Assembly: GCA_036496605.1 (NCBI GenBank)
Contig: DASXKV010000035.1
Span: 124,001 to 188,000 of the forward strand
Origin: Gemmatimonadaceae bacterium
GTDB lineage: Bacteria; Gemmatimonadota; Gemmatimonadetes; Gemmatimonadales; Gemmatimonadaceae
Reading direction: 5' to 3'
Length of the DNA stretch: 64,000 nt
Every line of letters starts with the position of its first letter. Positions within the stretch are counted from its first letter, which is position 1. Positions 23,504 through 43,801 of this stretch are shown here, piece after piece. The notes under the pieces are model-generated. The model was given only the letters and a program-made list of their open reading frames with translations. It did no database searches and had not been told where the DNA came from. A program made the position numbers and the translations under genes.

Positions 23504-24522
23504 CCGGCGGCGGCCCGCCCGGTGACGGAACCGCCGGGACGACTCACGAGCTCTCCGCGCCTGACGATGCACCGCGACTCGATCTGTTGATTGCGGGGCA
23601 GCTCGATCTGTCTCGCAATCAGGCGGCGACGCTGATCGCAAATGGCCGCGTATGGGTGGATGGCCGGCGAGAAAAGGCGAGCTACCGGGCCCGCGCGGGT
23701 GAGCGCATAACGGTTGTGATGCCGACGCCTCCAACGCGGACCGTGCTCGCGGAATCGATTCCTTTGGCAATTGTCTATGAAGACGAGGACGTGCTCGTCG
23801 TCGACAAGCCCGCCGGCATGGTCGTACATCCCGCGCCCGGCCATTGGTCCGGGACCCTCGTAAATGCCCTGAAGGGTCGAGGGTCGACGCTCTCTGGGGG
23901 AAGTGCCGAAGGGCGCGAAGGAATCGTCCATCGGCTGGACAAGGAAACGTCGGGGCTTCTGCTCGTCGCGAAGACGGACAGGGCACATCGCGTATTGGGC
24001 GCCGAGCTCCAGGCCCGGCGCATCGTTCGACGCTACGCAGCAGTCGCCTGGGGACATGTCGCCGAAGATCGCATCACGATCGAGAAGCCAATCGCGCGCG
24101 ATCCGCGAGACCGAAAGCGCATGGCGATCGTCAGTAAGGGACGGCCGGCGCGGACGGATTTCACCCGGCTGGCGCGCTTCGATTCCGCCGATCTGCTACG
24201 GGCGCACCTGTACACCGGGCGTACGCATCAGATTCGCGTGCATCTCACCGCGATCGGCCATCCGGTCGTTGGCGATGACACGTACGGCGGAGGCGGGGGG
24301 CGCCGGCTCGTTCAATTACCCCCGCGTCGACACTTTCTGCACGCTGCGTGGTTGCAGTTTCGCCATCCGGTGAGCGGGAAGGAGATCGACATTCGCTCAC
24401 CGCTGCCGGAGGATCTCCGCCGAGCGCTGGCCGCCATTGCACAGGGCAGTCTTCCCGACGACGCACTTGCAGGCGACCTCGATCCGCTGGAGTACTTTGG
24501 CTTCTACCGCCTCCACCTTTGA
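23500..24522 (+). CDS. RluA/RluD-family rRNA pseudouridine synthase
   Basis: A 340-residue enzyme. An N-terminal S4 RNA-binding domain (about 25-75; LDLLIAGQLDLSRNQAATLI, GRVWVDG) precedes the RluA catalytic domain with HRLDKETSG (catalytic Asp147), VDKPAGMVVHPAPGH, YLYTGRTHQIRVHL-type motif (LYTGRTHQIRVHL) and IGHPVVGDDTYGG. RluD in E. coli modifies 23S rRNA helix 69; the exact target here is not provable. It starts on a GTG overlapping the lspA stop. The lspA-rluD pairing is widespread. The downstream cheW starts within its last codons. Confidence 0.92.
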   Translation: MTGGGPPGDGTAGTTHELSAPDDAPRLDLLIAGQLDLSRNQAATLIANGRVWVDGRREKASYRARAGERITVVMPTPPTRTVLAESIPLAIVYEDEDVLVVDKPAGMVVHPAPGHWSGTLVNALKGRGSTLSGGSAEGREGIVHRLDKETSGLLLVAKTDRAHRVLGAELQARRIVRRYAAVAWGHVAEDRITIEKPIARDPRDRKRMAIVSKGRPARTDFTRLARFDSADLLRAHLYTGRTHQIRVHLTAIGHPVVGDDTYGGGGGRRLVQLPPRRHFLHAAWLQFRHPVSGKEIDIRSPLPEDLRRALAAIAQGSLPDDALAGDLDPLEYFGFYRLHL

Positions 24523-24973
24523 GCCAACCGTCGCGCCGGCTACCGGGGCGCGACGGACATTGCTGTACCGGGTTGGAAGCGCGGTTTACGGCTGCGACAT
24601 CGACGACATTCGGGAGATCGTACCATTCCGGCAAGCGACTCGCTTGCCGGGCGCACCGGGGTATGTCACGGGGCTGATCAATCTCCGCGGGACGATCGTA
24701 ACCGTCTTCGATCTCGGTGTACTCCTCGACGCCACGCGCGCGCGTGTAGCTGAGAATAGTTCGATCATGCTCGTCGCGATGCCAGGGAACAGCCGCCTGG
24801 TTGGCGTCGCGGTGCAGGAAGTCATGGATGTTCGCGTCGTCGGCACGTCGGTCGACGATGTCATTGCCGACAGCGCCGGCAACGATGCCGTGCGCGGTCT
24901 CGCGCACGTGGACGGCGGGACGGTCATCCTCCTCGACATCCACTCACTCGTCAGGCAGGTCCTGCTCTCCTAG
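24497..24973 (+). CDS. CheW-like chemotaxis coupling protein (first of three)
   Basis: A 158-residue CheW domain protein. Core motifs: LLYRVGSAVYGCDIDDIREI, VPFRQATRLPGAPGYVTGLI, NLRGTIVTVFDLGVLL, VMDVRVV and VILLDIHSLV. CheW links receptors to CheA in the signalling array. The TTG at 24497 is preceded by GGAG four bases away and overlaps rluD by 26 bases; an in-frame ATG at 24437 would overlap by 86 bases. It is the first gene of the chemosensory locus and is followed directly by cheY. Confidence 0.88.
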   Translation: MASTASTFEPTVAPATGARRTLLYRVGSAVYGCDIDDIREIVPFRQATRLPGAPGYVTGLINLRGTIVTVFDLGVLLDATRARVAENSSIMLVAMPGNSRLVGVAVQEVMDVRVVGTSVDDVIADSAGNDAVRGLAHVDGGTVILLDIHSLVRQVLLS

Positions 24974-24981
24974 GAGGTTCC

Positions 24982-41860: not shown

Positions 41861-42740
41861 CGAACAGCCGCCGTCGTTCCGCGAGCGATATGGCGCGCTC
41901 GCACAGCGGCTGTCCGGTCAGGGCGCCGAGAAGGAGCTGGACGCGCTCAAAACGGAGATCGGTGCGCTCTTCAAGCAAGTGGAGCAGGAGATCGGTGAGC
42001 TCAGCACCCTGCGCGACGACGTGAAACAATTGGTGGAGCGGTGGAAGACCATCCGCGCGCACCACGGCGGCAACGGGAATTCCGGCACGCACGCTGCTGT
42101 CCCGTCGAATGCGCCACAGTTTTCCGGCGAGCGTCCCGTGGTGCACGCGGATCACCTTGGCGCGTCGACGTTCATCGAAAAAGGCTGGAGCAAGCTTTCA
42201 CTTGGCGATCATGTCGGCGCGGAGGCCGCGCTGCGAAAGGCAATCGAGCTCTCGCCTAACGATCCGCAGTCCGAGGCGCTGCTCGGTTGGGCGCTCATGC
42301 TCCAGGAAAAGTACGACGACGCCCTGCTCACATTCCAGAAAGTGTTGATGCGTCAGCCACAGAACGCGCTCGCGCGAATCAACGTCGGCTACATTTGCCT
42401 CAAGAAGGGCATCTTCGGCGAAGCGATCGAGCATCTCTCGCGCGCCATCCGGCTCGATAACGACAAGAAGGCATCGCTCTACGCCCACTTTTATCTGGGA
42501 TTGGTGTATCTCGAGCGCGACATGTTCGAGGACGCGCAGACGTTTTTCCGAAAAACCATTGCGCTGGGGCCGGGTCTGATCGAGGCCCATTTCGAGCTGG
42601 GGCGTGCGCTCTGGTTCAACGGCCAGCGCGACGAGGCGATCGAGACATGGAAGGGCGGCTTCGCCGCGAACAAGTTCAATCAATGGGGAAAGCGTTGCGC
42701 GGATGTCCTGAAAACGGTGGAGCAGGGGGGAGAGCCCTAG
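41853..42740 (+). CDS. coiled-coil plus TPR protein
   Basis: A 295-residue protein starting MPNEQPPSFRERYGALAQRL. Residues 20-70 form a coiled coil (EKELDALKTEIGALFKQVEQ; LREDVKQLVERW-like heptads), and a Gly/Ser/His-rich linker follows. Residues about 105-285 hold five TPRs (IEKGWSKLSLGDHVGAEAAL, EALLGWALMLQEKYDDALLT, ARINVGYICLKKGIFGEAIE, YAHFYLGLVYLERDMFEDAQ, AHFELGRALWFNGQRDEAIE). No signal peptide. The start lies in the 3' end of cheW, so it is translated from the chemosensory transcript. Function unknown. Confidence 0.86.
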   Translation: MPNEQPPSFRERYGALAQRLSGQGAEKELDALKTEIGALFKQVEQEIGELSTLRDDVKQLVERWKTIRAHHGGNGNSGTHAAVPSNAPQFSGERPVVHADHLGASTFIEKGWSKLSLGDHVGAEAALRKAIELSPNDPQSEALLGWALMLQEKYDDALLTFQKVLMRQPQNALARINVGYICLKKGIFGEAIEHLSRAIRLDNDKKASLYAHFYLGLVYLERDMFEDAQTFFRKTIALGPGLIEAHFELGRALWFNGQRDEAIETWKGGFAANKFNQWGKRCADVLKTVEQGGEP

Positions 42741-43801
42741 CGCGTAAAGCGCTGAGCGGCGCGCGTAGAGCGTTGAGCGTTTCCGCTGTTGCCTTCCTCG
42801 CGCTTGCACCGCCGTCCCCGCTCGGCACGCAACCCCCTACTCTCAGCGCTCTGGCGTCTGGCCAGTACGCTCCGCTCCGTCTGGATCGCGGCCGCTTCAC
42901 GGCAGTGTTCTATCCTGGCGACGACAAGCTCGCACGCGCGCTGCTCCAACGAGCGCTGGCCACGGACAGCTTTCCCGGACTTCCGCGTCCCTCGCAGCAT
43001 GTTCTCATCGCCATCGCCCCCGACGAGCGTCGCTTTCGTGAGTGGGCAGGACCTGGCGCGCCCGAATGGGGAGCCGCGCTCGCCTTTCCGGAGATGCGGC
43101 GCATCGTGATGCAGGGACGCAGCGCCGGCTCCGACGCGGGAAATCCGCTCGAGGTGCTGCGACACGAGCTTGCCCATCTCGCGCTTCACGAGTACCTAGG
43201 TGACATCGCGCCACGCTGGTTCGACGAGGGATACGCCAGCTTCGCGGCGCGCGAGCTCAGTCGCAACGATGTTCTCGCGGCGAATGTCGCGCTGGCATTG
43301 CGAGGCATGCCGACCTTCGACGAGCTCGATGCGCAGTTCGGGGAAGGTGCGACGAGCGCTCAGGCCGCGTACGCGCTTGCCTATCGCGCGGTCGACGACA
43401 TGGCGTCGATGGACCCGGAGCGTGGTCTCGCGCTGTTGTTCCAGAACTGGCGACAAACGGGCTCGCTCGATCGTGCGCTGCGACAGTCGTTTGGCGTTAC
43501 GCTCGCCTCGTTCGAGCACGACTGGCAGCAACGCACGCGGCGTCGATATGGCGGACTTGCACTCTTCAGCGATATCACCGTCGCGACGATCCTTTGCCTG
43601 CTTTTGATCGGGCCATTGTACATCGCGCGCCGGCGGCGCGATCGACGCCGAATGGCAGCGCTCGTCGCCGCGGACGCGCTCGCCGAGGCGTCGGCGGCAC
43701 GAGCTTCCGTGGAGTTCATGGATTCGTCCGTTGAGGAGCCAAGCGCCCCGGACGATCGGACCGAAGCAGGCGGTCCGGATGACGCGCCGCACGGCAACTG
43801 A
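42683..43801 (+). CDS. secreted MA-like zinc metallopeptidase with C-terminal membrane anchor
   Basis: Up to 372 residues. A hydrophobic signal segment (VSAVAFLALAPPSPLG) precedes a gluzincin domain with VLRHELAHLALHEYLG (HELAH) and the third ligand in RWFDEGYASFAAREL. A transmembrane helix follows near the C-terminus (ITVATILCLLLIGPLYIARR), then a charged tail of about 65 residues. The start is uncertain: ATG 42683 overlaps the TPR gene by 58 bases, while non-ATG starts such as TTG 42773 lie downstream. The N-region is encoded by a 21-base tandem repeat. A second MA-like peptidase lies at 5683. Confidence 0.8.
   Translation: MGKALRGCPENGGAGGRALARKALSGARRALSVSAVAFLALAPPSPLGTQPPTLSALASGQYAPLRLDRGRFTAVFYPGDDKLARALLQRALATDSFPGLPRPSQHVLIAIAPDERRFREWAGPGAPEWGAALAFPEMRRIVMQGRSAGSDAGNPLEVLRHELAHLALHEYLGDIAPRWFDEGYASFAARELSRNDVLAANVALALRGMPTFDELDAQFGEGATSAQAAYALAYRAVDDMASMDPERGLALLFQNWRQTGSLDRALRQSFGVTLASFEHDWQQRTRRRYGGLALFSDITVATILCLLLIGPLYIARRRRDRRRMAALVAADALAEASAARASVEFMDSSVEEPSAPDDRTEAGGPDDAPHGN
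42741..42782 (+). repeat. 21-base tandem duplication at the peptidase N-terminus
   Basis: Two copies of a 21-base unit (42741-42761 and 42762-42782) share the pattern CGCGTARAGCGYTGAGCG. Because the period is a multiple of three, the reading frame is kept and the units encode ARKALSG and ARRALSV, the basic part of the signal peptide. The unit begins right after the stop of the upstream TPR gene. Confidence 0.7.

Follow-up and report, generated by a model that had tools for sequence, protein, structure and literature searches.

In Myxococcus, GTP-bound MglA acts through the TPR protein SgmX on PilB (PMC7668184, PMC11580455), and in cyanobacteria PilB is bound by PATAN regulators (PMC9090330, PMC10519157). 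Polarity is under the control of Frz and Chp (PMC10329633, PMC10519157), and the Pil-Chp system employs two regulators, PilG and PilH (PMC10519157). For the inversion of the MglA polarity module by Frz, the mechanism is described as unknown (PMC10329633). Group 1 MglA proteins of Gemmatimonadetes, and occasional PATAN neighbours, were listed by Wuichet and Sogaard-Andersen (PMC4316618). Here we analyse a stretch of 64,000 nucleotides (G000:C35:124001-188000, hereafter the window) from a draft genome of a Gemmatimonadaceae soil bacterium (5.97 Mb, 97% complete), in which a chemosensory (Che) pathway, MglA, MglB and several candidate adaptors are encoded in one run of genes; the literature searched holds no prior description of this MglA–Che locus of Gemmatimonadota.

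On balance, we favour the reading that the locus is a chemosensory-controlled polarity module, in which CheY would set the MglA/MglB polarity of type IV pili much as in Frz or Chp, and that it probably steers surface movement by these pili, judging from the described systems. The evidence for this reading includes the conservation of the whole run across the phylum and its stepwise dismantling in relatives, where the chemosensory array is lost repeatedly and the polarity proteins persist.

Gene content of the locus

The initial annotation described a same-strand, mostly overlapping run of named genes, and all of them are present on the forward strand at 24.4–43.8 kb, overlapping for the most part or sitting a few bases apart:

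24437..24973, +: cheW1 (Pfam CheW, E 1.4e-25; start possibly at 24497, TTG)
24982..25344, +: cheY, a stand-alone receiver (Pfam Response_reg, E 9e-32; D54)
25425..27473, +: cheA, with domains P1 (Hpt), P2, P3, P4 and P5 (CheW-like); phospho-His in HTVKG, N, G1 and G2 boxes
27470..28102, +: cheC, a CheC/CheX phosphatase with two ExxN motifs
28115..30898, +: large TPR protein of 927 aa, SgmX-like by kind alone and not by demonstrated homology
30902..32068, +: PATAN (DUF4388)-TPR protein 1 (Pfam DUF4388, E 3.5e-30)
32061..32930, +: TPR-Roadblock/LC7 protein (Pfam Robl_LC7, E 6.5e-10)
32927..33277, +: Roadblock/LC7 protein b (Roadblock structures, E 4e-7)
33274..33747, +: MglB homologue, the third LC7 protein (profile match to M. 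xanthus MglB and predicted fold)
33812..34408, +: mglA, a Ras-like GTPase with R53, T78 and Q82 (M. xanthus MglA, E 2.5e-75)
34411..36354, +: double DnaA-type AAA+ protein (DnaA2x), two Bac_DnaA ATPase stretches
36475..38100, +: PATAN (DUF4388)-TPR protein 2 (PATAN2; Pfam DUF4388, E 2.8e-40), kept in all variants of the locus
38097..38960, +: cheR, with its SAM motif
38957..39457, +: cheD (C33/H51)
39447..40592, +: cheB, receiver and methylesterase (D, SSTGG, QHM, D)
40725..41357, +: cheW2, the least conserved
41354..41860, +: cheW3 (CheW domain, E 1.4e-33, from the whole-genome scan)
41814..42740, +: TPR protein, retained in nearly all variants with mglA
42647..43801, +: Peptidase_MA-like protein (E 1e-11) with one predicted membrane segment, also part of the minimal form of the locus

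The last of these had been taken for a further TPR protein, an assignment that the Peptidase_MA match replaces. Two intergenic gaps within the run, 25345-25424 and 33748-33811, hold inverted repeats of ragged short repeat units.

The components of the locus, like the co-conservation and modularity described below, were read from sequence. The active-site residues of CheA, CheB, CheC, CheD and CheR are intact as had been proposed, D54 of CheY being present as well, so that the set of CheA, CheW and CheY with CheR, CheB, CheD and CheC is complete. The locus CheA carries no receiver. The earlier description of the system as receptor-less holds for the locus, which contains no receptor gene, but not for the cell: eight methyl-accepting chemotaxis proteins (MCPs) score above the cut-off in the window genome, all on other contigs, and a cell without receptors is thereby rejected. 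Since the four CheW domains of the genome all lie within the locus, one of them inside CheA, this is the genome's sole CheA with a CheW-like domain; the statement is limited to that type, as no search for P5-less CheA elsewhere in the genome was made.

The GTPase matches M. xanthus MglA over residues 1-194 at the E value given above and Thermus MglA at E 2e-65, and its R53, T78 and Q82 align at positions identical to those of Myxococcus MglA. Three LC7 proteins had been counted in the run, and the third of them, though without a match in the Pfam scan, is MglB by profile (E 1e-17 against M. xanthus MglB) and by predicted fold: its model has a pLDDT of 87, its best match in the Protein Data Bank (PDB) is M. 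xanthus MglB (E 2.4e-10), and the top 29 PDB matches found by Foldseek are all MglB. Its activity on MglA as a GTPase-activating protein or guanine nucleotide exchange factor is putative.

Conservation across the phylum

From a scan of relatives' contigs for MglA, the best 80 loci were taken. As far as the contigs reach, some 80 additional loci show the order Roadblock genes–mglA–DnaA2x–PATAN2, and the arrangement is therefore not a matter of chance; a complete Che set flanks the module in nearly all loci, and mglB was detected in 90 of the loci. By its relatives, the window genome belongs to Gemmatimonadaceae in the phylum Gemmatimonadota, and the 80 best matches are, with two exceptions, titled Gemmatimonadota or a subgroup of it. 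The two are L072, titled just "bacterium", and L085, titled Planctomycetota, a 3.2 kb contig with mglA–DnaA2x–PATAN2 and an MglA 85% like that of the window, probably a contaminant. The median identity to the window is highest for CheY (91%) and MglA (85%), followed by RluD (63%), IleS (53%) and CheA (53%). The neighbourhood survey thus finds the full Che pathway and the MglA/MglB pair co-conserved phylum-wide in one run; neither genes scattered without co-conservation nor co-conservation with flagellar genes only was found.

Natural dissection in relatives

Twenty additional neighbourhoods were read for variants of the locus. In L072, L090, L091 and G013, CheA stops after its ATPase domain and lacks P5; CheY and CheC are kept, cheW, cheR, cheB and cheD are lost, and in G013 a recognisable dimerisation domain is missing from CheA too. 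P5-less CheA genes lie at L072:2431-3933, L090:2507-4000, L091:2432-3928 and L135:16066-17505(-). MCPs are absent from three of the four P5-less genomes (L072, L091 and G013); the single MCP of the fourth, L090, sits with a second CheA and FliG on a contig other than that of the locus. L109, G158 and G020 retain CheY and the MglA module without a locus CheA, and the L109 genome has no MCP. The loss of receptors hence coincides with the loss of array parts, as L072, L091, L109 and G013 combine the absence of MCPs with a P5-less or absent locus CheA. Short remnants of cheR and cheB are left in G020; such remnants at L136:4883-5357(-), between PATAN2 and TPR4, are a decaying chemosensory half-operon. 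G012 and G044 have kept CheA and lost cheR, cheB and cheD, and G047 has little more than rluD–mglA–PATAN2. A minimal form is found in four genomes of family f5 (L119-L122), whose locus consists of rluD–DnaA2x–PATAN2–peptidase, without che genes or mglA, and DnaA2x, PATAN2 and the peptidase must therefore be useful beyond MglA and Che. The minimal form is followed in three of these genomes by a receiver domain that has diverged to about 30% to CheY/CheB.

On a tree of rluD and PATAN2, whose root and direction of change were not inferred by a program, the loss of P5 amounts to two independent events and the Che state changes ten times in all, a few of these changes being contig-end artefacts (L102, L131). 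Because complete loci stand on both deep branches (L125 and L128 on one, the rest on the other), repeated loss is the simplest reading. It is the parts of the array, namely CheW, CheR, CheB, CheD, the P5 domain of CheA and the receptors, that were lost repeatedly, whereas MglA, MglB, the TPR and PATAN proteins and usually CheY persist; the polarity module therefore looks like the core of the locus and the Che pathway like its input.

The double DnaA-type protein

The gene between mglA and PATAN2, annotated from the start as a tandem DnaA-like AAA+ protein, does encode two DnaA-type AAA+ domains, and no match to the DNA-binding C-terminal domain (domain IV) of DnaA was found in it beside the two Bac_DnaA ATPase stretches. 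It is laid out as AAA1, a conserved motif at about 256-268, a helical linker (274-360), AAA2, a disordered tether and a C-terminal W..P/EE motif. AAA1 is 44% identical to domain III of B. subtilis DnaA (TM 0.93), and AAA2 matches DnaA/Hda, the match to Hda being by profile. The predicted model (pLDDT 89) shows the two AAA+ domains and a confident helical linker, with low-confidence stretches at 244-272 and 608-630 and a short C-terminal helix; the placement of the domains is unsure, given a pTM of 0.48. In the tail, E629, W635 and E644 are invariant among 41 full-length sequences, and a search of the other locus proteins of the window did not find the tail motif. No tandem DnaA protein of this kind is described in the literature searched.

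The same slot holds a graded series of smaller proteins: one AAA+ domain with linker and tail, about 400 aa, in G026, G158 and G032; linker and tail alone, 204 aa, in G159; and the two motifs alone in G010 (73 aa), G016 (86 aa) and likewise G047. ATPase-less small proteins lie at L126:10926-11147, L131:2094-2354(-) and L130:10164-10778(+), the smallest consisting of an EFxxF..D/EI motif and a WP...EE tail and nothing else; in L120, of family f5, Walker A is lost from AAA2. Since the gene shrinks to an ATPase-less protein of 73-86 aa in several lineages, its ATPase activity is not essential, and a role as an indispensable ATPase is ruled out by the passage from two AAA+ domains to one to none. 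The conserved function must then reside in the two short motifs, which look like binding peptides. DnaA2x thus looks like an adaptor whose ATPase domains are optional, their dispensability being a comparative result and the adaptor activity a suggestion from the motifs.

A more specific proposal, which we offer tentatively and think more likely wrong than right, is that a DnaA-type AAA+ ATPase left replication and was taken up by a GTPase polarity module as a two-motif adaptor that binds MglA, MglB and PATAN partners; CheY or MglA would drive its tandem domains, which would use ATP to work as a clock or remodeller and reset polarity. Alternatively, DnaA2x might regulate DnaA in the manner of Hda and so couple the timing of replication or division to polarity, with Che feeding into cell-cycle control. 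The likeness of its two domains to DnaA domain III and Hda, the lack of a DnaA box-binding domain, as in Hda, and the neighbouring division genes would suit such a regulator, but several lineages that retain a gene in this slot have degenerate ATPase domains or none, and genomes without DnaA2x are common, which leaves this idea very doubtful. With the adaptor reading, DnaA-type ATPase domains would have a place beyond replication, as parts that a signalling adaptor can do without.

Genomic setting

The run is inserted between rluD and a cell-wall and division cluster. Upstream lie a yggS-type gene, divIVA, a phosphorylase gene, ileS, a dksA/traR-type gene, two lspA genes and rluD; downstream follow TPR5, a diacylglycerol kinase gene on the opposite strand and then the mraW–ftsL–ftsI–mur–ftsW–murG cluster. 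The two lspA genes (signal peptidase II) stand side by side at 22370-23503. The co-directional divIVA, of a polar landmark family, lies at 17224-17781 and is near the locus in the f5 genomes too.

This site brings to mind another role, in which MglA, PATAN, TPR and DnaA-like proteins form a pole scaffold that places the chemosensory array and other envelope machines beside DivIVA and the division apparatus, so that polarity would act on Che and CheY would act elsewhere. The flanks divIVA–ileS–lspA–rluD and mraW–fts–mur bracket the locus in every deep lineage read, and the minimal f5 form occupies the same site without Che or MglA, both of which fit a scaffold. However, module and CheY outlast the array in L109, G158, G013 and the L072 clade; placing the array cannot therefore be the sole task, and we consider a pole scaffold unlikely.

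Proposed function

We infer from protein families and described precedents how a chemosensory-controlled polarity module would operate, from CheA–CheY phosphotransfer through CheY action on MglA/MglB to the pilus output. Receptors encoded elsewhere, together with CheW, CheA and adaptation by CheR, CheB and CheD, would set the activity of CheA, which would phosphorylate the highly conserved CheY, CheC stripping the phosphate. CheY would then act on the MglA/MglB switch or on its TPR, PATAN or Roadblock partners, moving or inverting MglA-GTP at the cell pole, and MglA-GTP, via the large TPR and PATAN proteins, would license the extension of type IV pili at that pole. The double-DnaA gene product would be an adaptor in which the two short motifs are essential and the AAA+ domains an optional nucleotide-dependent layer. 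The pilus and polarity output is proposed because of the MglA–SgmX–PilB, PATAN–PilB and Frz/Chp precedents. The initial annotation's central claim, a Che output that resets an MglA-driven polarity or motility switch, is accordingly upheld in its genomic part, Che and MglA/MglB being co-conserved in mostly non-flagellated genomes, and its output part is drawn from homology with the systems of Myxococcus, Pseudomonas and cyanobacteria.

Co-occurrence was counted in a panel of 80 genomes, chosen partly for the presence of DnaA2x; the counts were compiled by hand from program outputs and shared ancestry was not corrected for, so that p values are descriptive only. Of the 45 genomes with locus MglA, 41 also have CheA. 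The same counts bear on whether this is a pathway for flagellar swimming whose operon happens to include unrelated genes, as the classically flagellar nature of the Che families and the presence of FliG in 17 of the 45 could suggest. FliG is absent from the other 28, among them the 97% complete window genome, for which flagellar control is consequently rejected. Extra CheA genes occur in many of the flagellated members, and G299 has its only MCP on a contig apart from the locus, together with FliG and a second CheA. The flagellar account is thus largely refuted for the window genome and scarcely credible overall.

As for pili, the window genome has PilM (E 3e-57) with neighbouring pilN/O/Q-like and prepilin-like genes as well as PilB/PilT-type (T2SSE) ATPases, and PilM or PilT occurs in all 45 locus genomes, including G043 and G300, which had seemed pilus-less until PilT was found. 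No pilus gene lies inside the locus. This would also suit control by CheY and MglA of exopolysaccharide, secretion or gliding through another machine: in Myxococcus, MglA also drives Agl/Glt gliding, and exopolysaccharide is driven by a Dif-type Che system. The PATAN and MglA/TPR precedents nevertheless indicate PilB, and a pilus system is at hand in the window genome, which makes such an output distinctly improbable.

Several observations weigh against a pilus polarity switch run by Che. First, the association of locus and pili that had been suggested as a check is uninformative (Fisher p 0.13), pili being almost universal in the panel, and it has been set aside as evidence. Second, the f5 family keeps DnaA2x–PATAN2–peptidase without either mglA or che, and in G016 mglA is lost while che and MglB stay. 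Third, another mglA with an adjacent Roadblock-like gene exists apart from the locus, near recR-like and dnaX-like genes that were named by their sequence starts and not scanned, so that the locus holds a second MglA/MglB pair; the recR-side pair could be the pilus polarity switch and the locus MglA could have another task. This other mglA, with its upstream MglB-like Roadblock gene, is found at L145:30-707 and L146:1-1105(-), in slightly differing copies at two contig ends.

A chemosensory-controlled polarity module remains the account we favour. It would be of value, since one run unites the entire Che pathway with MglA, MglB and the candidate adaptors and has been dismantled stepwise in relatives, which narrows the likely target of CheY to a few proteins; the variants offer ready comparisons for binding tests and a route to how a Che pathway acts on a polarity switch.

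Comparison with known systems

Among the closest known systems is the M. xanthus Frz system with MglA/MglB/MglC/RomR/RomX and SgmX, FrzS and SopA, with which the locus shares a complete Che pathway, MglA, MglB, further Roadblock protein(s), a large TPR protein and, probably, surface motility without flagella. The locus differs in that Che and MglA/MglB stand in one run, whereas Myxococcus mglA lies away from its signalling partners (PMC4316618); in its stand-alone CheY, compared to FrzX, FrzZ and RomR; and in its PATAN proteins, CheC, CheD and DnaA-type adaptor. No RomR, RomX or RomY was recognised among the locus genes, and the locus has neither a FrzCD-type receptor nor a FrzE-type CheA–CheY fusion, so that it is not a Frz system proper. 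SgmX is a TPR-only protein that binds MglA-GTP via its C-terminal TPRs; the TPR-only protein of the locus is a putative MglA binder.

In Pil-Chp of Pseudomonas aeruginosa, likewise, a Che-type kinase and a CheY-type regulator set the polarity of type IV pilus extension; to our knowledge, its locus is without MglA, MglB or PATAN. The cyanobacterial Pix/Pil/Tax systems link the PATAN domain to a Che pathway and pili, but there PATAN is fused to a receiver, whereas here it is fused to TPRs, CheY is separate and MglA/MglB are added. The actinobacterial conservons (Cvn) combine a kinase, an MglB-type Roadblock protein and a Ras-like GTPase in one operon; unlike the present locus, they have a single membrane histidine kinase, no Che, no PATAN or TPR proteins and a Group 2 MglA (PMC4316618). 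Lastly, each AAA+ domain of DnaA2x has the fold and motifs of DnaA domain III and Hda, from which the protein departs in its tandem build, its missing DNA-binding domain, its conserved C-terminal motif and the dispensability of its ATPase domains.

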